This document shows positions 44,958 through 62,270 of a DNA stretch of 64,000 nucleotides, piece by piece. The stretch spans positions 186,001 through 250,000 of the forward strand of contig NZ_QENZ01000005.1 in assembly GCF_003096835.1 (NCBI RefSeq), written 5' to 3'. The position numbers were made by a program, and so were the translations under genes. The stretch's first letter is position 1. Every line of letters starts with the position of its first letter. The notes under the pieces are model-generated. The model was not told the origin of the DNA. It saw only the letters and a list, made by a program, of their open reading frames with translations, and searched no databases. The stretch is from Balneicella halophila. GTDB lineage: Bacteria; Bacteroidota; Bacteroidia; Bacteroidales; Balneicellaceae.

Positions 44958-44987
44958 TTGGCATTTCCGCTAAAGTTCATAACTTTG
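44958..44987 (+). promoter_or_regulatory. Putative promoter for korAB
   Basis: TTG at 44958-44960, a 19-base spacer and TAACTTTG at 44980-44987 are a full Bacteroidota match, 28 bases before the korA ATG. Confidence 0.65.
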
Positions 44988-45015: not shown

Positions 45016-46851
45016 ATGGAAAAAGTAATAAAAGTCCTAGAAAAGGATCATATTGTCATACGATTTTCTGGAGACTCAGGAGATGGGATGCAGCTAACAG
45101 GGACACAATTTGCAGCTACTTCTGCCCTCTTTGGAAATGATATTTCAACTTTCCCAGATTATCCTGCGGAAATACGTGCACCACAAGGCACTATTGGTGG
45201 TGTTTCCGGATTTCAATTACATATTGGACAAAAAACTGTTTATACTCCTGGAGATTTTGCTGATGTGCTCGTTGCTATGAACCCAGCGGCATTACGTGCA
45301 AATTTGAAAACAGTCGCAAAAAATGCTGTTATCATTGTCAATAAAGATGCATTTACTGCTAAAAATATTGAGAAGGCAGGCTATACAGAAAATCCTCTAG
45401 AGAACGGTTCATTAGAACAATATAAAGTTATTTCGGTGCCAATCTCGAGTTTGACTAAAGAGGCGCTTTCTGAGTTTGACATAGATGCAAAAACAATAGA
45501 CCGCTCTAAGAACATGTTTGCTTTAGGTCTTACCTATTGGCTTTTTGAGAAAGAACTCACTCATACTGATAGTTTTTTAGACAAGAAGTTTAAAAAGAAA
45601 GGTAACATTGCAGCAATCAACAAAAAAGTACTAAGAGCTGGTTATAACTATGGAGAAGCAACCCATGTAACTGCTAATCATTACGTTATAGCTCCGGCAA
45701 AAATAAAGAAAGGTACGTACCGAACGATTACTGGAAATGAAGCGACAGCATGGGGACTAATGGCGGCCACTGAAAAAGCTAACTTACCTTTATTCTGCGG
45801 TTCTTACCCTATAACACCAGCTACGGATATTTTGCAATATTTAGCAGCTTACAAAGAATTAGGCATCAAGACTTTCCAAGCAGAAGACGAAATTGCTGGA
45901 ATATGTACGGCTATTGGTGCTTCCTTTGCCGGAAATCTGGCTGTCACCACAACATCAGGCCCCGGCTTGGCTTTGAAAACCGAAGCTGCAGGTCTGGCAG
46001 TGATGACCGAACTACCACTGGTTATTATTGATGTACAGCGTGGAGGTCCATCTACAGGTTTACCTACCAAGACAGAACAATCGGACTTGCTTCAAGCTAT
46101 TCATGGAAGAAACGGTGAAAGTCCTTTAATAGTGATGGCAGCAAGTACTCCTACAAATTGTTTTGATTATGCTTATTATGCTGCAAAACTTACGCTTGAG
46201 CATATGACACCTGTTATATTACTCACTGACGGTTTTATTGCCAATGGTGCAGAACCTTGGCGTATCCCGTCTATGGACGTTATACCAGAAATCAAACCAC
46301 GAATTGCTTCATTGGATAAAGAATATCAACCTTATCAGCGAGACGAAAAAACCTTAGCAAGAGAATGGGCGTTCCCAGGAATGAAAGGACTTGAGCACCG
46401 TATTGGTGGTTTGGAAAAGGAAAATATAACCGGACATGTATCGCACTCTCCTTTGAATCATCAAATAATGAGTGACTTAAGAAAAGAGAAGGTAGAACGA
46501 GTAGCCGATAGCATTCCTGATCAAAAAATATACGGAAAAGACAATGCTGAGACCCTTATTGTAGGCTGGGGAGGTACTTTTGGTCATTTGCTAACAGCCG
46601 TTGAACAATTGGTTGATGAAGGACATGATGTGGCTTTAGCTCAATTTAACTATATCCATCCTCTTCCAAAAAACACAAAAGAGCTATTTAAAGACAGAAA
46701 GAATATCCTAGTTTGTGAGCTTAACCAAGGACAATTTCTTGAGTACCTAAGAGGACAATTCCCTCATGTTGATTTTAAACAGTACAATAAGTTGCAAGGT
46801 TTACCATTTACTGTAAAAGAAATTAAAGAAGCTATCCTTAACTTGAAATAA
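45016..46851 (+). CDS. korA: 2-oxoacid:ferredoxin oxidoreductase, fused gamma-alpha subunit
   Basis: The 611-residue subunit joins the gamma domain (residues about 10-190, with RFSGDSGDGMQLTGTQFA) to the alpha pyrimidine-binding domain (about 220-600, with GNEATAWGL, CGSYPITPATDIL, QAEDEIAGICTAIGASFAG and TTTSGPGLALKTEA). This fused form with a separate beta subunit is typical of 2-oxoglutarate:ferredoxin oxidoreductases, which oxidatively decarboxylate or reductively carboxylate with low-potential ferredoxin. Substrate assignment to 2-oxoglutarate rests on the architecture. korB starts 10 bases downstream. Confidence 0.9.
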   Translation: MEKVIKVLEKDHIVIRFSGDSGDGMQLTGTQFAATSALFGNDISTFPDYPAEIRAPQGTIGGVSGFQLHIGQKTVYTPGDFADVLVAMNPAALRANLKTVAKNAVIIVNKDAFTAKNIEKAGYTENPLENGSLEQYKVISVPISSLTKEALSEFDIDAKTIDRSKNMFALGLTYWLFEKELTHTDSFLDKKFKKKGNIAAINKKVLRAGYNYGEATHVTANHYVIAPAKIKKGTYRTITGNEATAWGLMAATEKANLPLFCGSYPITPATDILQYLAAYKELGIKTFQAEDEIAGICTAIGASFAGNLAVTTTSGPGLALKTEAAGLAVMTELPLVIIDVQRGGPSTGLPTKTEQSDLLQAIHGRNGESPLIVMAASTPTNCFDYAYYAAKLTLEHMTPVILLTDGFIANGAEPWRIPSMDVIPEIKPRIASLDKEYQPYQRDEKTLAREWAFPGMKGLEHRIGGLEKENITGHVSHSPLNHQIMSDLRKEKVERVADSIPDQKIYGKDNAETLIVGWGGTFGHLLTAVEQLVDEGHDVALAQFNYIHPLPKNTKELFKDRKNILVCELNQGQFLEYLRGQFPHVDFKQYNKLQGLPFTVKEIKEAILNLK

Positions 46852-48492: not shown

Positions 48493-48521
48493 TTGGCATA
48501 AGTCATAAAAATGTAACTTTG
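48493..48521 (+). promoter_or_regulatory. Putative promoter for the FUSC-family gene
   Basis: TTG at 48493-48495 and TAACTTTG at 48514-48521 are separated by 18 bases. The ATG is 34 bases downstream. Confidence 0.55.
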
Positions 48522-48555: not shown

Positions 48556-50688
48556 ATGAAAGAATCATGGAATAAAGTCCGCAATAAGATAGAGGTTCTT
48601 TGGATAAATGTTTTTTGGCAATATCCACAAAGGCTTCTTGCTCTAAAGATAGCTATTGCCGTTGCTTTGCTCATTATTCCATTTGAAATTATAGGAAAAC
48701 CTTTCTTTGGAATGACACTGGCACTGGGTGCTGTGGCTACGGCTTTGTCTGAAACGGATGACTATCCGAGAGGGCGTATCAAAGCGCTGGCAATTATGTT
48801 ATTGAGTTTTTTTGTGTCAAGTGCCTCTGTAGAATTATTGCGTCCACATCCGCTCTTATTTGGAATAGGACTCATTGGCTCTACTTTCTTTTTTATTATT
48901 CTAGGTGGTATGGGCGAGCGCTACAGGGGAATCACCTTTGGGGCTTTATTGATAGCTATTTACACCATGTTAGGAACGTATTTTGGCAATCCTTGGTACT
49001 ATCAACCGATATTACTCCCTCTGGGTGGATTAGGATATGGAGTTGTCTCATTGGTGTTGCTTTATATCCGTCCTTGGAGGCTTCTAAAAGAACAACTTGC
49101 ACAAGGTTATCGAAAATTAGGAGATTATACCGCACACAAGGCAAAATTCTTTCCAAGTGACCCGAAGCTACAAGACACGCTAAGAAATCAGTTAGCTCAA
49201 AAAAACATTGCGGTGGTTCAATCAATTGGACAATCTAGAACGGCACTTATCAGCTATGCCAAAGAAGTTAAGGATCATCCGGTTATGCCGATATACTACA
49301 ATAAATGGTTGCTCTTACAACAAATGCATGAGCGTGTAGCATCTAGCCATGAGCGCTATGACTTATTAAGTCAAGACACCAAAAATCCTCAACTCATAGA
49401 AGGCTTTGGGCAATTACTTAAAGAAATCTCTAAAGCAATACAGCAAGTTGGCACTTCGTTACTTACTGATATTCCTTACAAGCACCCTATTTCCTTATCT
49501 TGGACAATTACAGCCCTGCATGAGATGATGCAAAGAAGTGAGAGTGATCCACAGTATCCATCACTTAGTTTATTGCTAAAGAATCTTACTGAATTAGAAC
49601 AAACGCTTCGCACTATAGACGACCAGCGAGTGATTACTTCTATGCCAGATATTGAATATCAATCGCAACCAATAGTAACACGCCTCAAAAAGTTAATGAG
49701 GCATACACATCCAAGGTTTCGTTATGCAGTTCGCCTTAGTATTTGTTTTGCCATTGGTTATGCACTCATGTACTTCTTAAAGATAGAAAAGGGAGACTGG
49801 ATATTACTGACCTCGCTGTTCGTTTGTCAGCAAACCTATAGTGAAACTCGCCAGCGACTATTCGAAAGAGTTATGGGAACAATAGCGGGCGTAATACTAG
49901 GGATTTTATTAGCTCAACTGCTTCCTACGCCCACAGGACAAATTATCTTACTAGTAGGCTCTATATATCTCTTTATGATATGGTTACGAAAGAAATATGC
50001 AGTTGCTGTTATTTTCATTACCACCTATGTACTTGCAGCTTTTAATATCCAAGCAGATCAAGGAATAGCAGTAATGGGACCACGCATTGTTGATACCTTG
50101 ATAGGTGCATTCTTAGCTTATTTTGTGGTTCGTTTCATTTGGCCTGATTGGCAATACAAACATCTGCCGGAATTATTGAGAAATGCATTGGCTAAAAATG
50201 AAGCCTATTTACAAGCTATTTATACACCCAATTATCCTCCGATGCAGTACCGTGAAAGCAGACAACAAACGCATGAAGCCGATACGGCATTAACACTTGC
50301 TTGGCGAGGGATAAAGGTTGAGCCAAAGCGCAAATCATTTTATGAGAAAAAAGCATTTACATTGACTTATCTAAATCATGCCCTATTGTCTTATTTATCA
50401 GCCTTAGGAGCCCATGCACAGAATCAACAATTTAATGAAGAAGAACTATCTATATGTAAAAATGTGACTGAGGTTTTGCAACAGGCACAAATATTGTTAG
50501 CTGATAAAGACATTTTACCCAATACCCCTTTAGTACTCAGAGAAATAAAAGAATGGGAAGACGTATTGTATGAGCGAAAGAAGGAATCCAACAACAGACG
50601 AATCACGTTACTATATAATCTAGCCCATACGGCTAAGGAACTACTAAAAGAGGCACAGTTATTACAGCAAAATAAAGTAACAGCATAG
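48556..50688 (+). CDS. FUSC-family inner-membrane protein (YccS/YhfK type)
   Basis: The 710-residue protein has two bundles of about six membrane helices (residues about 25-170 and 395-530), each followed by a soluble helical domain. FGMTLALGAVATALSETDDYPRGRIKA in the first bundle and YAVRLSICFAIGYALMYFLKIEKGDWILLTSLFVCQQTYSETRQRLFERVMGT in the second are typical of FUSC/aromatic-acid-exporter-like proteins. They are thought to move small acids or drugs, but no substrate is known here. It is the only gene of its unit. Confidence 0.88.
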   Translation: MKESWNKVRNKIEVLWINVFWQYPQRLLALKIAIAVALLIIPFEIIGKPFFGMTLALGAVATALSETDDYPRGRIKALAIMLLSFFVSSASVELLRPHPLLFGIGLIGSTFFFIILGGMGERYRGITFGALLIAIYTMLGTYFGNPWYYQPILLPLGGLGYGVVSLVLLYIRPWRLLKEQLAQGYRKLGDYTAHKAKFFPSDPKLQDTLRNQLAQKNIAVVQSIGQSRTALISYAKEVKDHPVMPIYYNKWLLLQQMHERVASSHERYDLLSQDTKNPQLIEGFGQLLKEISKAIQQVGTSLLTDIPYKHPISLSWTITALHEMMQRSESDPQYPSLSLLLKNLTELEQTLRTIDDQRVITSMPDIEYQSQPIVTRLKKLMRHTHPRFRYAVRLSICFAIGYALMYFLKIEKGDWILLTSLFVCQQTYSETRQRLFERVMGTIAGVILGILLAQLLPTPTGQIILLVGSIYLFMIWLRKKYAVAVIFITTYVLAAFNIQADQGIAVMGPRIVDTLIGAFLAYFVVRFIWPDWQYKHLPELLRNALAKNEAYLQAIYTPNYPPMQYRESRQQTHEADTALTLAWRGIKVEPKRKSFYEKKAFTLTYLNHALLSYLSALGAHAQNQQFNEEELSICKNVTEVLQQAQILLADKDILPNTPLVLREIKEWEDVLYERKKESNNRRITLLYNLAHTAKELLKEAQLLQQNKVTA

Positions 50689-50850: not shown

Positions 50851-51024
<174 letters not shown>

Positions 51025-51112: not shown

Positions 51113-51196
51113 CAAAAAGCGACAAGTCTAAGTTGCCGCTTTAAATGTTTTCACAACGGAATAATCCTTATTGTGAATTGGTTCAATTTTTATCAC
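51113..51196 (-). ncRNA. tracrRNA of the type II-C CRISPR system
   Basis: On the minus strand, 51196-51170 reads GTGATAAAAATTGAACCAAT then TCACAAT, nearly the same as the plus-strand repeat section ATGATAAAATTGAAACCAAT then TCACAAC. It is therefore complementary to crRNAs transcribed from the minus strand of the array. TTCACAA and TTGTGAA (around 51174 and 51153) can also form an internal stem with GGA/TCC inside. The 3' end is a perfect 8-base hairpin (AGCGGCAA/TTGTCGCT, 51140-51118) followed by TTTTT. A TATATTTG -7 box lies just upstream. It diverges from cas9. Ends are estimates; predicted length is about 80-85 nt. Confidence 0.85.
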
Positions 51197-51198
51197 TA

Positions 51199-51206
51199 CA
51201 AATATA
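51199..51206 (-). promoter_or_regulatory. -7 box of the tracrRNA (TATATTTG)
   Basis: A perfect TAnnTTTG on the minus strand, placing the start of transcription at the beginning of the anti-repeat. The -33 region is TTTC-like rather than TTTG. Confidence 0.65.
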
Positions 51207-51284: not shown

Positions 51285-54200
51285 ATGAAAAGAATATTAG
51301 GACTTGATTTAGGGACAAACTCTATCGGTTGGGCATTAGTACACCAATCAGAAGCTAAAGAAGAATTATCAGAAATTATAAAGTTAGGTGTAAGAGTAAA
51401 TCCTCTAACAGTTGATGAAAAGAGAGATTTTGAAGCTGGACGTCCTTTGTCAACCAATGCAGAAAGAACATCAAAACGTGGAGCAAGACGTAATCTTCAA
51501 CGCTTTAAGTTAAGACGTAAAAAACTAATTGAAATTTTAATAAAAAACCATTTTATTACTGAGGAGACACCTTTGACGGAGATTGGAAAAGGAACTACTC
51601 ATCAAAACTTAGAATTACGTGCGAAATCAGCCAGAGAAAAAGTAGAATTAGAAGATTTAGCAAAAATATTTTTAGCCATAAATAAAAAGAGAGGCTATAA
51701 AAGTAGTCGTAAGGTTCAGAACGAAGAAGATGACCAACCTATTGATGCAATGTCAATAGCTAAAGAAATATATGAAAAAGAAATTACAGTAGGACAATAC
51801 GTTCTTAATCTCTTAGAAGAAGATAAAAAATATATTCCTGACTTTTACCGTTCGGATTTACAGCAGGAATTTGATAAAGTTTGGAATTTTCAAAAACGAT
51901 TTTATCCTGAAATCTTAACAGATGAGTTATACAAAGAGTTGCAGAATAAAAATAAAACACGTACTTGGGCAATCTGCAAAGAGCCTTTTCAACTTGTTGG
52001 TATTAGCCTAACAGAAAAAGGTGCAGATCTAAAAAAGAAAAAGTACCAACTTCGTTCGCAAATGATAGCTGAGAAGTTAGATTTAGAATTATTGGCTATT
52101 GTACTTCAGGAAATAAATAACGATTTGAATAAATCAAGCGGCTACTTAGGTGCTATTTCAGACAGAAGTAAAGAGCTTTATTTTAATAATGAAACGGTAG
52201 GTGAAAATCTTTGGAAGCAAATTAAAGATAATCCTCATACTTCTCTTAAGAATCAAGTCTTCTATAGGCAAGATTATTTGGATGAATTTGAGCAAATTTG
52301 GGAAACTCAAGCGAAGTATCATAAGGAACTGACACCTAAATTAAAAGAAGAAATTCGAGATGTAATTATTTTTTATCAACGCAAATTGAAATCACAAAAG
52401 AGTTTACTTAGTTTCTGTCAATTTGAGAGCTGGAAAATTGATAAGAAAGATGAAAAAGGCAATATTATACAAAATAAATTAAGTGGTTTGCCAAAGCAAC
52501 AAAGAATCGGCAGGCGTGTAATTTCAAAGTCGTCTCCCCTATTCCAGGAGTTCAAGATTTGGCAAAATATTAATAATCTTGTTTTTCGAAGAATGTATGG
52601 CGCCACTAAAGATTTATTTAACCAAGAAATTCAGACTGACTATATACTTAAAGACGAAGACAGGAATTTACTTTTTGAACAATTAAATATAAGAGGAAAA
52701 CTTAAAGAGAAAGATGTTTTAAAGACGCTTGGATTGAATGCAAAGCTTTGGAAAACAAATTTCCCTGAAGGTCTTGAAGGAAATCGGACAAATGAAGCAT
52801 TATATAAGGTTTATAAACTGATTGCAGAAAATGAAGGCTATGGATTTAACTGGGACAGAAAAAATGCAACTGAGATAAAAGAAGAATTGAGTGCGATATT
52901 TACGGAAATAGGCATAAATTCAAATATATTAGATTTCGATGCAAATATTGAAGGTGAAGAGTTTGAAAAACAAGCTTCATATCAATTATGGCACTTGCTA
53001 TATTCCGCAGAAGATGATAACAATACAAAAATATCAGAAGAGGATATTGAAAAATATGGAAATACATCTGTAAATCTAAAAAAGAAACTTTGTGAGAAAT
53101 TTGGTTTTATCCCCAAGTATGCAAAATTATTGGTAAATATTCCACTGCAACCAGATTATGGCAATCTTTCAAGCAAAGCTATACGTAAGATTATGCCTTA
53201 TTTACAAGAAGGACATATCTATTCTGAGGCTTGCAGTTTGGCTGGCTATAATCACTCAAATAGCTTAACAAAAGAAGATAATGAAAATAGAGAATTAGCT
53301 GATTATTTAGAGTTATTGCCAAAAAACAGCTTAAGGAATCCAGTAGTAGAGAAGATTTTGAATCAAATGGTCAATGTAGTTAATCAAATCATTGACGAAT
53401 ACGGAAAACTCGATGCAATACATATAGAATTGGCCCGTGAGTTGAAAAAGAATGCTAAAGAACGTGAGTTAGCAACTAAAAGGATAAATGAAGCAACAAA
53501 ACGAAATGAAGAAATTAAAAAGAAAATTTCTGAAGATTTTAATATTCCCAATCCTACACGAAATGATGTCATAAGATACCGACTTTGGGAGGAATTAAAG
53601 ACAAATGGTTATAAAACTGTCTTTACTAATCAATATATACCTTATGAAAAGCTTTTTTCTAAAGAAATTGAGATTGAGCATATTATGCCTAAAGCTTTAA
53701 TTTTTGATGATTCTTTTTCAAACAAAACATTAGCTTATCACTCAGAGAACCAAGCTAAAGGAAATAGAACGGCAATCGATTTTATCAGTAACGATAATAG
53801 CCTTGACGTTGAAAACTATCAAACAAGAGTAGATTTATTATATGATAATGGAAAAGGAACTATCACCAAAGCTAAACGAAACAAGTTGTTGCTATCGCAA
53901 AAGGATTTGCCAGATGGATTTATTGAAAGGGATTTACGCAATAGTCAATATATTGCTAAGCAAGCAAAAAATATGTTGCAAACAGTAGTAAGAGAGCCTG
54001 TCGTTTCTACTTCAGGAAATATTACGAATAAATTACGTGAAGATTGGGACTTGATTAATATAATGAAAGAGTTAAATCTTCCTAAATATCGAGCATTGGG
54101 TTTAACAGAGTTTGAAGAGAGACTAAATAAACAGACAGGTAAATGCGTCAAGCATGAAGTTATTAAGGACTGGACGAAACGTAATGATCATCGTCATCAT

Positions 54201-55487
54201 GCTATGGATGCTCTAACAGTTGCTTTTACAACACACAATCATATCCAATATTTAAATAATTTGAATGCTCGGAAAGATGAAAATCACGATAAGCATCTAA
54301 GTATTCTTAAAATTCAAAACAAGATAACAAAGTATGAAGATAGCAAAAGAAAATTCATAGCACCGATGCCTAATTTCCGTTCTGAAGCCAAAAGGCATAT
54401 AGAGTCCATTTTAGTTTCTATAAAGAATAAAAATAAAGTTGTTACTATAAATAAAAATTACACAAAAGGAGGCACTGCAAAACCTCAACAAACCTTTACC
54501 CCAAGAGGGCAACTACATAAAGAAACCGTGTACGGTAAGTCGAAGCGTTTAATGACAAAACCAACAAAACTAAACAAGAATTTTACCCAGGAGTATTGTC
54601 GTCTTATTGCAAACCCATACTTGAAAGGTATTGTTGCTGAACATTTAGCAAAATATAATAATAAACCAGAGATTGCGTTTAGTGCAAAGATATTGAAAAA
54701 AGAGCCTATTTTATATAAAGATAATGCTATAAAAGAAGTATTGTGTTACGAAGATATTTTTACTATTCGTAAAACTATAGCACCGGACTTGAAATTGGAT
54801 AAAGTGATTGACTTGAGGGTGCAAGATGTATTGCAAAATCGCTTAAATGAATATAATGGTAATTCTAAAAAGGCATTTTCTGACATTGAAAAAAATCCTA
54901 TATGGTTAAATAAAGAAAAAGGAATTGCTATTAAGCGTGTAACCATAACCGGCGTGAGTAATGTCGAAGCTTTGCATACTAAAAAAGACCATTTAGGACA
55001 AAACATATTAGACGAGCAAGGTAATACACAGCCTATTAACTATGTTAGTACAGGAAATAATCATCATGTAGCAATATATCGGGATAGTGAAGGAGATTTA
55101 CAAGAAAAAGTTGTCTCTTTATTTGAGGCAGTAGAGAGAGTTAATCAAAGACTTGCAATTATTGATAAGGAATATAAGAAAGATTTAGGCTGGGAGTTTT
55201 TATTTACAATGAAGCAAAATGAAATGTTTGTTTTTCCGACAGAAGATTTTAAACCTCATGAGATTGATTTATTAGATATTGAAAATGCAGACAGAATAAG
55301 TCCACATTTATTTAGGGTACAGAAAATCGGCTCTAAAGATTATTGGTTCAGACATCATTTAGAAACTACAATAACAAATAATCTAAACTTCACCTATTGC
55401 AGAGTAACAAGTACAAAACCATTAGAAGGAATTGTAAAAGTTAGGATTAACCACATTGGCGAAATAGTTCAAGCTGGAGAATATTAA
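51285..55487 (+). CDS. cas9: CRISPR-associated endonuclease Cas9 (type II-C)
   Basis: Cas9 uses crRNA and tracrRNA to cut matching DNA. The 1400-residue protein is a long II-C type, and neither csn2 nor cas4 is present. RuvC-I has LGLDLGTNSIGW with catalytic Asp8. An Arg-rich bridge helix follows (SKRGARRNLQRFKLRRKK). RuvC-II has IHIELARE with Glu715, HNH has EIEHIMPKA with His799 and later SENQAKGN, and RuvC-III has DHRHHAMDA with His972 and Asp975. All nuclease residues are intact, so it should be active. The C-terminal PAM-interacting domain gives no PAM by eye. cas1 follows 12 bases downstream; the tracrRNA diverges upstream. Confidence 0.98.
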   Translation: MKRILGLDLGTNSIGWALVHQSEAKEELSEIIKLGVRVNPLTVDEKRDFEAGRPLSTNAERTSKRGARRNLQRFKLRRKKLIEILIKNHFITEETPLTEIGKGTTHQNLELRAKSAREKVELEDLAKIFLAINKKRGYKSSRKVQNEEDDQPIDAMSIAKEIYEKEITVGQYVLNLLEEDKKYIPDFYRSDLQQEFDKVWNFQKRFYPEILTDELYKELQNKNKTRTWAICKEPFQLVGISLTEKGADLKKKKYQLRSQMIAEKLDLELLAIVLQEINNDLNKSSGYLGAISDRSKELYFNNETVGENLWKQIKDNPHTSLKNQVFYRQDYLDEFEQIWETQAKYHKELTPKLKEEIRDVIIFYQRKLKSQKSLLSFCQFESWKIDKKDEKGNIIQNKLSGLPKQQRIGRRVISKSSPLFQEFKIWQNINNLVFRRMYGATKDLFNQEIQTDYILKDEDRNLLFEQLNIRGKLKEKDVLKTLGLNAKLWKTNFPEGLEGNRTNEALYKVYKLIAENEGYGFNWDRKNATEIKEELSAIFTEIGINSNILDFDANIEGEEFEKQASYQLWHLLYSAEDDNNTKISEEDIEKYGNTSVNLKKKLCEKFGFIPKYAKLLVNIPLQPDYGNLSSKAIRKIMPYLQEGHIYSEACSLAGYNHSNSLTKEDNENRELADYLELLPKNSLRNPVVEKILNQMVNVVNQIIDEYGKLDAIHIELARELKKNAKERELATKRINEATKRNEEIKKKISEDFNIPNPTRNDVIRYRLWEELKTNGYKTVFTNQYIPYEKLFSKEIEIEHIMPKALIFDDSFSNKTLAYHSENQAKGNRTAIDFISNDNSLDVENYQTRVDLLYDNGKGTITKAKRNKLLLSQKDLPDGFIERDLRNSQYIAKQAKNMLQTVVREPVVSTSGNITNKLREDWDLINIMKELNLPKYRALGLTEFEERLNKQTGKCVKHEVIKDWTKRNDHRHHAMDALTVAFTTHNHIQYLNNLNARKDENHDKHLSILKIQNKITKYEDSKRKFIAPMPNFRSEAKRHIESILVSIKNKNKVVTINKNYTKGGTAKPQQTFTPRGQLHKETVYGKSKRLMTKPTKLNKNFTQEYCRLIANPYLKGIVAEHLAKYNNKPEIAFSAKILKKEPILYKDNAIKEVLCYEDIFTIRKTIAPDLKLDKVIDLRVQDVLQNRLNEYNGNSKKAFSDIEKNPIWLNKEKGIAIKRVTITGVSNVEALHTKKDHLGQNILDEQGNTQPINYVSTGNNHHVAIYRDSEGDLQEKVVSLFEAVERVNQRLAIIDKEYKKDLGWEFLFTMKQNEMFVFPTEDFKPHEIDLLDIENADRISPHLFRVQKIGSKDYWFRHHLETTITNNLNFTYCRVTSTKPLEGIVKVRINHIGEIVQAGEY

Positions 55488-55499
55488 AATAAAACAACA

Positions 55500-56722
<1,223 letters not shown>

Positions 56723-56745
56723 AATATGATTCCTAATAACAAATA

Positions 56746-56772
56746 AAAACCACTGAATATCAGTGGTTTTTA
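56746..56772. terminator. Bidirectional hairpin between cas2 and the array
   Basis: AAAACCACTGA and TCAGTGGTTTT pair around a 3-base loop with T-runs on both strands. It can end the cas operon on the plus strand and array transcription on the minus strand. Confidence 0.8.
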
Positions 56773-56777
56773 TTTAG

Positions 56778-58534
56778 GTTGTGATTCCTCACAAAGTTAA
56801 TGATAAAATTGAAACCAATTCACAACGGATGTTAAGAAACATATGGAAACGGATGAGTTGTGATTCCTCACAAAGTTAATGATAAAATTGAAACCAATTC
56901 ACAACTAATTGAGCTTGTGCCTAACACCAGTTATGGTTGTGATTCCTCACAAAGTTAATGATAAAATTGAAACCAATTCACAACAAGCAGCGGTAATGCC
57001 TAAAACAGCAAGTCGTTGTGATTCCTCACAAAGTTAATGATAAAATTGAAACCAATTCACAACTATTTGATTTTGAAGTGCCTAATGAACGTAGTTGTGA
57101 TTCCTCACAAAGTTAATGATAAAATTGAAACCAATTCACAACTATCAAGTGGAACATGATTGAATGGTTACTGTTGTGATTCCTCACAAAGTTAATGATA
57201 AAATTGAAACCAATTCACAACATCGTTTCCTCGATAATTCGTATGTGTTTTGTTGTGATTCCTCACAAAGTTAATGATAAAATTGAAACCAATTCACAAC
57301 CCTTTGCTATTTAAGGCTTACAGAGCATAAGTTGTGATTCCTCACAAAGTTAATGATAAAATTGAAACCAATTCACAACATGATTCATTAAAGCAAACCC
57401 CATTAGGAGTTGTGATTCCTCACAAAGTTAATGATAAAATTGAAACCAATTCACAACTAAGGAGTCTGCCTATTTTGAAAGCTTAAAGTTGTGATTCCTC
57501 ACAAAGTTAATGATAAAATTGAAACCAATTCACAACAAAATTCAAAGAAGGGATTAAATGTATTGTGTTGTGATTCCTCACAAAGTTAATGATAAAATTG
57601 AAACCAATTCACAACGACTAATGGAGATATTACAAATCCTAAAGAGTTGTGATTCCTCACAAAGTTAATGATAAAATTGAAACCAATTCACAACATTAAG
57701 CACCCAAACAAAAAATTTCCCTACGTTGTGATTCCTCACAAAGTTAATGATAAAATTGAAACCAATTCACAACGCATTTTGTTCCATTGTATGTCATTCC
57801 AATGTTGTGATTCCTCACAAAGTTAATGATAAAATTGAAACCAATTCACAACTAGCAACACTTGAAAGCACAGGTATAGGCAGTTGTGATTCCTCACAAA
57901 GTTAATGATAAAATTGAAACCAATTCACAACATTTTCTTTTAGAATGTCAAAAATGCTTTTGTTGTGATTCCTCACAAAGTTAATGATAAAATTGAAACC
58001 AATTCACAACTACCAACACTTGAAAGCACAGGTATAGGCAGTTGTGATTCCTCACAAAGTTAATGATAAAATTGAAACCAATTCACAACACTTCCTTATC
58101 AACTCTGCCACCCAACGGCGTTGTGATTCCTCACAAAGTTAATGATAAAATTGAAACCAATTCACAACAGAAGATTCAAAATGTTGAAAGTTTAACCGGT
58201 TGTGATTCCTCACAAAGTTAATGATAAAATTGAAACCAATTCACAACGTAAACGTTGTGATGGTGTAGTCTCTTCTTGTTGTGATTCCTCACAAAGTTAA
58301 TGATAAAATTGAAACCAATTCACAACGGATTTTTTATGACAATTTTCCATTTGAAGTTGTGATTCCTCACAAAGTTAATGATAAAATTGAAACCAATTCA
58401 CAACAAATTCCCTATTTGCCCAACAATCCAAAGGTTGTGATTCCTCACAAAGTTAATGATAAAATTGAAACCAATTCACAACAGTGGAACGATAATGCCT
58501 GAGCAAAGAAGTGTTGTGATTCCTCTCAAATATT
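56778..58534 (-). CRISPR. Type II-C CRISPR array, 22 full repeats plus one degenerate
   Basis: A 49-base repeat recurs at 56778, 56857, 56936, 57015, 57094, 57173, 57252, 57331, 57409, 57488, 57567, 57646, 57725, 57804, 57883, 57962, 58041, 58120, 58199, 58278, 58356 and 58434. A degenerate copy at 58513 keeps only about the first 18 bases. Spacers are 30 bases, three being 29. On the plus strand the repeat starts GTTGTGATTCCTCACAAAG and ends TTGAAACCAATTCACAAC; its ends are inverted (GTTGTGA/TCACAAC). The tracrRNA anti-repeat shows that crRNAs come from the minus strand, giving 5'-spacer-GTTGTGAATTGG. All 22 full repeats look identical on reading. The 14th and 16th spacers differ at one base. 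Confidence 0.97.
56792..56799 (-). promoter_or_regulatory. Intra-repeat -7-like box (TAACTTTG), first of 22
   Basis: On the minus (crRNA) strand each repeat contains TAACTTTG at the same place, 14 bases before the repeat/spacer boundary. It fits TAnnTTTG, the element seen upstream of several genes in this window (TAACTTTG itself precedes korA and the FUSC gene). Predicted transcription would start within the last 8-11 repeat bases. The same box lies at offset +14 to +21 of every other repeat. The -33 side is weak. Confidence 0.45.
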
Positions 58535-58603
58535 ACCGCATTATTATTAGTGTTTGAAGAAAAAAAGCTCAAATTTTGGTTTGCTATTTATCATTAAACA
58601 AAA

Positions 58604-58628
58604 AGAGCCTCACCGAAGTGAAGCTCTC
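58604..58628 (-). terminator. Terminator of the tricorn-like protease gene
   Basis: AGAGC-TCAC and GTGA-GCTCT pair around CGAA, with one mismatch in the stem and a T-rich tract on the minus strand. It lies 28 bases after the protease stop. Bases 58535-58603 hold nothing else I recognise; no long leader-like tract was evident. Confidence 0.7.
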
Positions 58629-58655
58629 TTGCAATGATTAAAATTCAGTTGATAA

Positions 58656-61600
58656 TTATTTATTATCCAGCTCTCGTAACATTTCTTTAACGGCAGCTTC
58701 CAATTGTTGGTCTCTTCCGTTGGTCACTTCTTCTATTTCATTACGAACTTTTAAATCTGGTTCCAATTGTTGATTCTCAAGATATTTTCCGTCCATACCT
58801 TTTGCACCTACTTGTGGAATTCCGAAAACAATTGAATTATCAATCTGTGTTTCCCACCATACTGCTGTAAACGTTCCAGGAACAGGCATTCCTACCAATT
58901 TACCTATACCTAATTCTTTGTAAGCATAAGGAAATCCGTGAGCATCAGAGTAGTTCCCCTCGCCCATCAACAATATACTCGGTTTGCTCCATTTAAATAA
59001 AGGTTCTGTTCCGATAACTTGTCCTCTTGGAGTTAGTGTCCAATAAGGTTTACCACTTAAAAGAGTTACTAAATCATCGTGCAACCATCCTCCACCATTG
59101 AAACGAGTATCAACAACTACAGCTTCTTTGTCAGCATATCTACCTAACAAATCTGAATAGACTTCACGGAAGCTTGGACTGTTCATGCCCTTTACATGGA
59201 CATAACCTAAACGACCGTTTGAAAGACGTTCTGTTTCTGCTCGCATTATTTTTACCCAGCGATTATAAAGCAAAGTATTTTCTTCTCCTCTGCTAATTGG
59301 CTTTATTACTTCATCCCATTTTTTTCCTCCTCTGGCTAATGAAATAACAACATTTTCATCTTTTTTGCGATTAAGGAGTTTAAAGTAATCATTATTCGGA
59401 TTAATTTCTTCCTTGTTAATATGAGTTATCACATCACCAACTTTGATGTCAAGCTTTGCTTTATCTAAAGGTCCATTCTCAAGAATTTCTGCAATCTTAA
59501 TTCCTTTTTTATTATAATCGTAATCAACTAATATTCCTAAAGATGCTGTATTGTCTCCGTTGGAATCACGATGACGATAACGTGCACCTGTATGCGAACC
59601 ATTTAATTCACCTAAAAGTTCTCCGAGCATTTCAGAGAAATCATAATTATTATTAATATGAGGCAGAAATTTTGCATAATTTTTCTTCAATCCTTCCCAA
59701 TCTAAACCATGAATATCAGGATCATAGAATTTACGCTTCACTTGACGCCAAGCATGTTCAAAAATATACTCACGTTCTCCTGCTTTGTCTAATTCAAATT
59801 CTGCAGAGTAGCTAATGTTCTTCTTCTTTTCTGAGCTTATTGGCATTTTATAAATACTACCTCCAGAAACGAAGAATAAGTTTTCTGCATCTTTATCCAT
59901 AGCAAATCCGCCACCGCCTCCTTTGAGTTTAAAAACCAATTCAGTTTTATTTTCCAATAAATTCTTACGCCATAAATCGAATCCTCCTTCGAACCTGCTC
60001 ATATAATATAGCTTCTTGCCATCAGGAGTTACTATAGCATCAGAGAGTTGAGAAGAGTTAATGGTTAAACGCTCCACTCTATCCTCAATACCATCAAGTT
60101 CTATTTTGATTGGCTCGAAAGTTTTATCATCTTTCTCCTTGCTTTTGTCTTTCTCTTCGTCTTTGTCATTGTCTTTACTCTCCTCATCCTTGTCATCATC
60201 CTTTTCTAACTCTTTTTCAAGTTCAAATTCTTCTTTGGACAATTGAAATTTATCATAAGCCTCTTGAGTTAAAAACATTGCATAAACATCATCTTCAGCT
60301 CCCCAGCTACCATGGCTACGATATCCGGCTTTGTCAGATGTCCAAATAATCATCTCCCCATCCATCATCCACTTTGGAATATTGTCTTCATATCCGCTTT
60401 GTGTAAGGTTAATAACTTCCTCGCCTCCTTTTGCACTTACCAAACCAACTTCACCTATCCAAAGATTCTTATCAAGATATCTTACCACAAACCATTTACC
60501 ATCAGGAGACCAATCATACCATTGGTCACCATCACTATACGAGAAGTTCAGTTTACTTGGAACAATAGTTCGTGTTTTTTTACTATCCAAATTAATCACA
60601 CGTAGTGCTGCTCTATTTTCAATAAAAGCAACTTCTTTCCCATCAGGAGAGTAGCTGGGCTGGAATGTTTCCTCTGGAGATTCTAAAATAACTTCTTCTT
60701 TCAATAATGTTGAATTTGCAAAATATTTTTCTTCATCTCGCACTTTTTTCGTTTGATATAGATTCCAACTTCCGTTACGCTCGCCTGCATATAAGATAGC
60801 ATCACCATCAGGACTAAAACTTACTGAGCGTTCCTGCTCTGGTGTGTCAGTAATACGTTTTGTAGTTTTATAGTCTGTTGAAGTTACAAACACCTCACCT
60901 CTTATGATAAAAGCAACCTCTTTACCATTTGGAGAAACTGCCATTTCTGAAATGCCTGAACCTTTACGTAAATGAACAATCTCATTAGCAACATCGTCTA
61001 CAAATAATGAAACGCTTAACTTTTGAGGTTTCTCATTTGGCAGTTGCGTATAGATTTCACCATTATATGAATAGCATAGCTTTCCTTGGTCTGAGATTGT
61101 TAAAAAGCGTACTGGATGTGTTTGAAATTTTGAAACCTGAGTAATTGCTGACGGATTGTCAATAGGCATTTTTGCCACATTAAACGTTCCAAACTGCTCA
61201 GTTAAATAATATATATTGCCATTGTTATCAGATACAGGATTTCTATCTTCTCCAGGAAATGTAGTGAGTTTAGTATGCTTCTCTGTTTTAGCATCATATT
61301 TCCACACATCACGAGTCACTGATGATTGATGGTGTTTGCGCCAAGGATCCTCATATCCCTTCTTATCATGATATAATAATGTTTTTTGATCTTTTGTCCA
61401 CACTGCATTCTCTGCTGGTGAGGTTAAAACCTGAGTTAATTGTCCTCCTTTTAATGGCACTTGATATAGCTCTGGAAGAACTCCAGTTGGAAACATATAG
61501 TTGTCAGGATCATCTTGAATCAATGCTGTAAATAAGACATATTTCCCATCTGGTGTTATACTCTCTGGTTTTTCACTTCCTGAATGGAAAGTTAGGCGAG

Positions 61601-62067: not shown

Positions 62068-62075
62068 TAGCTTTG
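62068..62075 (+). promoter_or_regulatory. Putative -7 box of the riboswitch-controlled receptor
   Basis: TAGCTTTG fits TAnnTTTG about 10 bases upstream of the first conserved bases of the cobalamin riboswitch. Confidence 0.55.
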
Positions 62076-62084
62076 CAATCGATT

Positions 62085-62270
62085 ATTAGGTGACAGAGTT
62101 TCTAATAATAGAAATTTTGTAAAAGGGAATACGGTGAAAATCCGTAGCAGTACCCGCTACTGTAAGTCCTACAAAAACGTTTTTATATCTAAATGCCACT
62201 GTTATTGTAATGGGAAGGCTATAAAAACAGGACGAGCCAGGAAACCTGCCTAAGTATCATAATATTACGT
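62085..62270 (+). promoter_or_regulatory. Cobalamin (AdoCbl) riboswitch
   Basis: Conserved pieces are in order: AGGTGACAGAGTT near 62087, GGGAATACGGTGAAAATCCG and GCAGTACCCGCTACTGTAAG near 62135-62170, GCCACTG and TGGGAAGGC near 62195-62222, and the B12 box GAGCCAGGAAACCTGCC at 62234-62250. About 130 bases separate it from the receptor ATG; CTTCCGGGAATAGAAG near 62279-62294 may be part of the expression platform. Such switches lower expression when cobalamin is plentiful. The rest of 61899-62084 and 62295-62397 shows nothing else I recognise. Confidence 0.93.

Follow-up and report, generated by a model that had tools for sequence, protein, structure and literature searches.

A candidate Bacteroidota-type promoter box in the repeats of a type II-C CRISPR array of Balneicella halophila

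Introduction

From which promoter are the crRNAs of a type II-C CRISPR array transcribed when, in crRNA orientation, the region beside cas2 comes after the last spacer? The question is raised by an array of Balneicella halophila, for which the original prediction proposed an answer within the repeats themselves: each repeat, read in the crRNA orientation, would carry a match to the -7 box of Bacteroidota promoters, and transcription would start near the repeat/spacer junction. Promoters borne by the repeats are known from the II-C arrays of Neisseria and Campylobacter (described in part of PMC8616872), and one was suggested for Clostridium cellulolyticum because its repeats end in a sequence like an extended -10 element (a passage of PMC7038990). 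In this study, the repeats of the B. halophila array were compared with those of other Bacteroidota type II loci, with type II repeats of other phyla and with repeats at cas3 loci, using the -7 consensus TAnnTTTG of the Bacteroidota sigma(ABfr) promoter as given in PMC7366714.

Methods

The relatives consisted of the best 80 of 140 Bacteroidota loci and of 63 further stretches from 62 Bacteroidota genomes with a Cas9 above the family cut-off. Such a Cas9 was present in 65 of 395 genomes, including that of B. halophila itself, and two genomes with fragments (G092 and G200) were left out. Together with three Bacteroidota plasmids and the window (the whole stretch of 64,000 nucleotides analysed here), 147 type II loci were obtained in total, and a usable array was present in 116 of them (59 of the 80, 53 of the 63, all three plasmids, and the window). 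The usable set excludes repeats shorter than 34 nt or containing N, any second array of a locus, and loci in which no array was detected. Repeats with a length of at least 43 nt were regarded as long (78 distinct sequences), and the box was sought after position 17.

The controls were the reverse strand of the same repeats, dinucleotide shuffles, and a set in which each 80%-identity group was represented once; the repeats share ancestry, and the last set lessens this relatedness but does not abolish it. The orientation of the repeats was checked against the anti-repeat at the 116 loci, with agreement at 91, conflict at 10 and no anti-repeat at 15; judging by the positions of the matches, some of the conflicting cases seem to stem from stray repeats beside the array and others from weak matches. 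For the terminal units, only arrays that had at least four units and were not too close to a contig end were used, which gave 91 arrays for the crRNA-5' end and 109 for the leader side.

Results

The window contains a cas9-cas1-cas2 operon with an adjoining repeat array, which is type II-C by gene content. The cas9 gene (51285..55487, plus strand) encodes 1400 aa with RuvC_III and HNH_4 domains and matched TIGR01865 at 493 bits, followed by a type II cas1 (55500..56387, plus; TIGR03639, 297 bits) and cas2 (56384..56722, plus; TIGR01573, 78 bits). A fourth operon gene (csn2 or cas4) was not found, as the ORF list held no extra plus-strand ORF of at least 80 aa between cas9 and the array. A predicted tracrRNA (51114..51198, minus strand) was located by local alignment. 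It has the parts expected of a type II-C locus, namely an anti-repeat (51198-51171), which matches positions 2-29 of the minus-strand reading of the repeat, a body, and, at about 51139-51113 (minus), a GC stem and T-run that resemble a terminator when judged by eye. In local alignment this anti-repeat was the only good partner of the repeat outside the array, and no exact copy of the repeat was present outside the array in the 2.09-Mb assembly. Because the anti-repeat and the predicted tracrRNA give the orientation, the crRNA strand is the minus strand, opposite to cas9. Elsewhere in the window, a cobalamin riboswitch was detected at 62071-62267 (99.8 bits), and a 55-aa ORF with two cysteine groups (50857-51024), small-ferredoxin-like by eye, is located between the FUSC gene and the tracrRNA.

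The array (56778..58482, crRNA strand minus) is composed of 22 identical 49-bp repeats and 21 spacers of 30 nt (18) or 29 nt (3). The spacers at 57853-57882 and 58011-58040, with one other spacer between them, differ by a single base, as though one target had been sampled on two occasions. In minus-strand reading the sequence of the repeat is GTTGTGAATTGGTTTCAATTTTATCATTAACTTTGTGAGGAATCACAAC. As originally predicted, TAACTTTG is present in all 22 intact repeats at repeat positions 28-35, 14 nt short of the spacer, from the cas2-nearest repeat (56792..56799, minus; first of the 22 by plus-strand position) to the cas2-distal one (58448..58455, minus; the last), and in each of them it agrees with the sigma(ABfr) consensus TAnnTTTG. 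The same sequence also stands, as had been stated, before two ORFs for which we keep the names korA and FUSC from that earlier work: at 44980-44987, 28 nt from the ORF at 45016, and at 48514-48521, 34 nt from the ATG at 48556.

The array by itself does not establish the significance of the box. TAACTTTG occurs 29 times in the window against 4.8 expected, an excess that arises because the repeat itself recurs and means nothing more. TAnnTTTG is expected 92.9 times per 64 kb on both strands and is thus so common that one 49-nt strand contains one with an estimated chance of about 3%. Chance, to which the original prediction had left room, would accordingly be a possible origin from this array alone, and it is conservation in the relatives that supplies the statistical significance. 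A scan for sigma70-type promoters over 56400-58900 gave five sites, compared with 10.4 in shuffles; one was inside the array on the plus strand, none recurred with the repeats, and this type of promoter was rejected as a candidate.

The survey of Bacteroidota II-C repeats showed that TAnnTTTG is kept at a near-fixed distance in the long class. Five or six of the six fixed bases were matched in 73 of the 78 distinct long repeats, perfectly in 21 and at 5/6 in 52, whereas the reverse strand gave 24 (2 perfect) and the shuffles 31.5 (2.7 perfect). TAnnTTTA, a 5/6 match, accounted for 28 of the 78. With the 80%-identity representatives, all 17 matched at 5-6/6 (6 perfect), compared with 5 (1 perfect) on the reverse strand and 6.3 (0.57 perfect) in shuffles. 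When the start of the box was confined to positions 20-29, 70 of the 78 still matched (20 perfect), against 24 (2 perfect) on the reverse strand. A repeat-encoded promoter calls for a promoter-like box that recurs throughout the array in crRNA orientation and is kept in relatives, and such a box was found in 22/22 intact repeats of the window and in 73/78 distinct long repeats. Aligned on the box, 70 repeats selected for having it showed 1.5-2.0 bits at box positions 1, 2, 5, and 6, about 1.0 bit at the last two consensus columns, and about 0.7 at the n positions; in the same selected set, the eight columns before the box held 0.33-0.76 bits and the ten after it 0.05-0.37. One locus, L089 from a Paludibacteraceae MAG, differed from the other arrays compared in that its crRNA strand is the cas9 strand, with the place of the box in the repeat unchanged.

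Conservation across related repeats held for the long class and only partly for the 36-nt Bacteroidota repeats. Among 23 distinct repeats of this length, 13 had the box at 5/6, four of them perfect, compared with none on the reverse strand and 4.4 in shuffles, while ten (L093, L094, L097, L098, L106, L111, L137, L139, L144, and L147) had no 5/6 box. These ten end in TACATT, TAGATT or GATATT, 19 nt past a TTG that ends at position 11, and their box may lie at the repeat end with its last two bases within the spacer. No excess of TG was found at the first spacer bases of arrays without an internal box, and because the spacers lack such a bias we offer the end-of-repeat box as a suggestion only.

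Repeats from outside this group presented a different picture. Sixteen non-Bacteroidota Cas9 loci, a small sample drawn from plasmids only, gave an array in seven, and since these repeats were oriented by their start rather than by a tracrRNA, both strands were scored. A perfect TAnnTTTG was present in 0/7 on either strand, and one (Ilyobacter) matched at 5/6. Instead, four of the seven ended in TATAAT or TACAAT (5-6/6 of TATAAT), whereas such a Neisseria-type hexamer at the repeat 3' end was found at 0/116 Bacteroidota loci at a threshold of at least 5/6, the window included. The repeat started with TTG in five of the seven; as this start is common outside the Bacteroidota as well, a TTG in that place is weak evidence for a promoter. 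At Bacteroidota cas3 loci, 26 of 40 had an array, and a perfect TAnnTTTG was present in none of the 26 distinct repeats on either strand; at 5/6, one matched as printed and four on the reverse strand (n=26), in a comparison that involves shorter repeats (28-31 nt) and no shuffle control. The proposal that the repeats would use the distinct Bacteroidota sigma is supported in part by this comparison, given a box kept in the long repeats and no perfect match in the 7 + 26 contrast repeats, though the conservation is not universal.

A like box was observed at the tracrRNAs. Anti-repeat matches numbered 108, and 94 were accompanied by a tracrRNA-like body motif. Within 51 nt upstream of the anti-repeat, 49 of the 94 had a perfect TAnnTTTG in the sense direction and 4 in the antisense direction, and TAnnTTTR started 8-14 nt before the anti-repeat in 54 of them. 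In the window, the -7-like box TATATTTG (51199..51206, minus) abuts the anti-repeat on its upstream side. Upstream of host ORFs in 684 kb of genome, TAnnTTTG was enriched (154 sense vs 88 antisense), TAnnTTTA weakly so (141 vs 113), and TATAAT not (64 vs 71). The host's own gene promoters in these 684 kb showed no clear -33 peak of TTG before TAnnTTTG, and the tracrRNA promoters were therefore taken as the yardstick for spacing: before 61 tracrRNA TAnnTTTR boxes, the TTG distance peaks at 19 nt (8 cases) and 20 nt (15 cases). Of 70 distinct long repeats, 60 have 18-21 nt between the box and the TTG at positions 2-4, so that most long repeats hold both elements near the tracrRNA-promoter spacing. 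The window's repeat departs from both ranges with a gap of 23 nt (TTG 2-4) or 16 nt (TTG 9-11), in agreement with the weak -33 side noticed at the outset.

Next, the terminal units of the arrays were compared. The unit at the crRNA-5' end was partial in 41 of 91 arrays, and that on the leader side in 4 of 109, which fits spacer entry at the opposite end; the array would accordingly be read from its old end toward its new end. The whole box was kept in 34 of the 41 partial units, where 25.2 would be expected for random breakpoints (p 0.003, with relatedness ignored). In these 34, the loss stops short of the box, so that the 3' part stays and the part pairing with the tracrRNA is mostly or partly gone. 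The repeat's own TTG was mostly lost as well, and a TTG stood 17-22 nt ahead of the box in 9 of the 41. The window itself has such a partial unit (58513..58534, minus), in which the 3' part is kept with the 5/6 box AATATTTG and the tracrRNA-pairing half is absent. Between this unit and the upstream gene stands an intrinsic-terminator-like hairpin (58630-58601, minus), which on the crRNA strand precedes the array. On that strand, a perfect TAnnTTTG was not found from 58455 to 59759, where 5/6 matches do occur.

Discussion

Taken together, these findings suggest, with a probability that we put at roughly 0.78, that each repeat is a two-module element in which a Bacteroidota sigma(ABfr)-type promoter reads into the next spacer. 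The 5' part of the repeat (about positions 1-22 in the crRNA orientation) would be the tracrRNA-pairing handle for the preceding spacer. The 3' part would be a promoter of the Bacteroidota primary sigma, with the -7 box TAnnTTTR, serving the following spacer; its -33 TTG would come from the repeat's own first bases, 18-21 nt upstream of the box in most relatives. From the sequence we infer recognition by the sigma factor, the position of the start, and the independent transcription of the units. As the box is taken to be centred at -7, transcripts are predicted to start about 9-11 nt before the spacer, inside the repeat, and the short primary crRNAs would therefore bear a repeat-derived 5' leader of about 10 nt. 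The start would thus be near the repeat/spacer junction, as first proposed, but not at it, and given this leader it does not follow that the 5' end of the crRNAs escapes trimming by RNase III. The window's array would be transcribed one unit at a time, in the direction opposite to cas9, beginning at its old, cas2-distal end and proceeding to the leader side beside cas2. With the same offset from box to start, many tracrRNAs would begin close to the anti-repeat or right at it.

A wider scheme appears to us slightly better than an even bet. In it, the repeat is bipartite, with a 5' tracrRNA handle and a 3' promoter for the host's own sigma, and the promoter half has been rewritten so that the array follows the sigma of its host: other phyla have a TATAAT-like sequence where the repeat ends, and TAnnTTTR stands midway in the longer repeats here. 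The truncated first unit would then be a stand-alone promoter half, and in the boxless 36-nt class the box may be a TAnnTT or GAnnTT that closes the repeat. If that end box is completed by spacer bases, the strength of the promoter would depend on the spacer. We presume that this boxless class may include the repeats of Flavobacterium columnare and F. psychrophilum.

Three other explanations were weighed, and all are weaker than a promoter within each repeat. One long pre-crRNA might start outside the array and be cut by RNase III on duplexes with the tracrRNA, the box being inherited without function. The intact anti-repeat makes such processing possible, ten of the 23 distinct 36-nt repeats have no box, and a paper on Riemerella describes, in the part relevant here, repeats without a promoter and promoters predicted in a 107-bp region on the cas2 side (PMC5006608). 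In the window, however, the cas2-side region follows the array in crRNA orientation, and transcription from there into the array would yield the wrong strand. The other end of the array offers a terminator-like hairpin and, apart from 5/6 matches, no perfect box until 59759. Moreover, the columns of the box are conserved while those after it drift, and the Riemerella repeat itself (L013) has TATCTTTG, a box that a predictor built for other promoters may miss. We consider a single long precursor unlikely.

The remaining two would keep the box for other purposes, and we give either of them very little credence. The box might be a recognition or measuring element for spacer integration by Cas1-Cas2, retained for adaptation and not for transcription; the repeats are indeed the substrate of integration, and spacers of Riemerella enter beside cas2 according to part of PMC6008519. 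Against such a role, 34 of the 41 partial units, which stand far from the site of spacer entry, keep the box; the same consensus stands at the 5' end of the tracrRNA; and four of seven type II repeats from other phyla end in a TATAAT-like hexamer instead. Alternatively, pairing with the tracrRNA or the structure of the repeat RNA might preserve the box. At 69 loci with long repeats, the anti-repeat match extends into the start of the box in 26 and spans the box in 12, so that part of the conservation of its TA could reflect pairing. The box nevertheless lies outside the match in the other 31, and its TT columns are more constant than the two n positions; as to structure, the window's repeat folds no better than most of its shuffles (z -0.92). 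A promoter within each repeat thus remains the reading that we prefer.

If it is true, such a promoter would explain the expression of II-C arrays across much of the phylum despite a leader at the far end, and would suggest why these repeats run to 45-50 nt. It would also correct the published claim that the Riemerella repeats are promoterless. For users of Bacteroidota Cas9, it would mean that one repeat may be enough for crRNA expression in a Bacteroidota host, which would perhaps fail in hosts with another sigma factor.

Comparison with known systems would place the array among the II-C arrays with repeat promoters and sets it apart by its box. In Neisseria and Campylobacter, as described in passages of PMC8616872, PMC8092290, and PMC12080349, each repeat likewise carries a promoter, crRNAs are made one by one, and transcription runs toward the acquisition end. 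Their extended -10-like element, in contrast, is located in the last nine nucleotides of the repeat (a passage of PMC7038990), whereas TAnnTTTR here stands in the middle of a 45-50-nt repeat with a predicted start within it. The arrays of Flavobacterium columnare and F. psychrophilum are Bacteroidota II-C arrays as well, and repeat promoters reading toward the leader were proposed there from a TTG alone, 33-35 bp before the spacer, a direction backed in F. columnare by eight RNA-seq reads on the array; in the relevant parts of these papers (PMC8092290, PMC10309648), TAnnTTTG is named for cas9 and not for the repeat.

Truncated first repeats have been considered too. In II-C arrays the first repeat is mutated mainly in its first 15 nt, and a need to retain the promoter was suggested in a section of PMC12080349, the main text of which does not contain the term 'bacteroid'; in the present set, the retained part holds the Bacteroidota box in 34 of 41. 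For the type II-C arrays of B. fragilis, the pertinent part of PMC5704556 states that no leader could be assigned and makes no mention of repeat promoters. For Prevotella intermedia, promoters of the tracrRNA candidates could not be predicted, according to an excerpt of PMC5608340, and the 47-bp repeat printed there has CAAAGATA, the complement of TATCTTTG.

Among these systems, CRISPR1 of Riemerella anatipestifer is a close relative (L013), with a Cas9 67% identical over the best segment. The tracrRNA is encoded upstream of cas9 and spacers enter beside cas2 (parts of PMC5006608 and PMC6008519), as in the arrangement discussed here. The difference concerns the repeats, in which a promoter was denied in the relevant section of the 2016 paper (PMC5006608, a passage of which also reports a palindrome in Riemerella); in our comparison, the L013 repeat has TATCTTTG 20 nt after its first TTG. 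In the parts of the openly licensed PubMed Central literature searched, TAnnTTTG was not found to be described as an element of CRISPR repeats. The view that the case was undescribed consequently stands for this box and gives way for the repeat promoter as such, which had already been proposed in Flavobacterium (passages of PMC8092290 and PMC10309648). Repeat promoters themselves are known in type II-C systems; what appears to be new here is the candidate Bacteroidota -7 box in the repeats.
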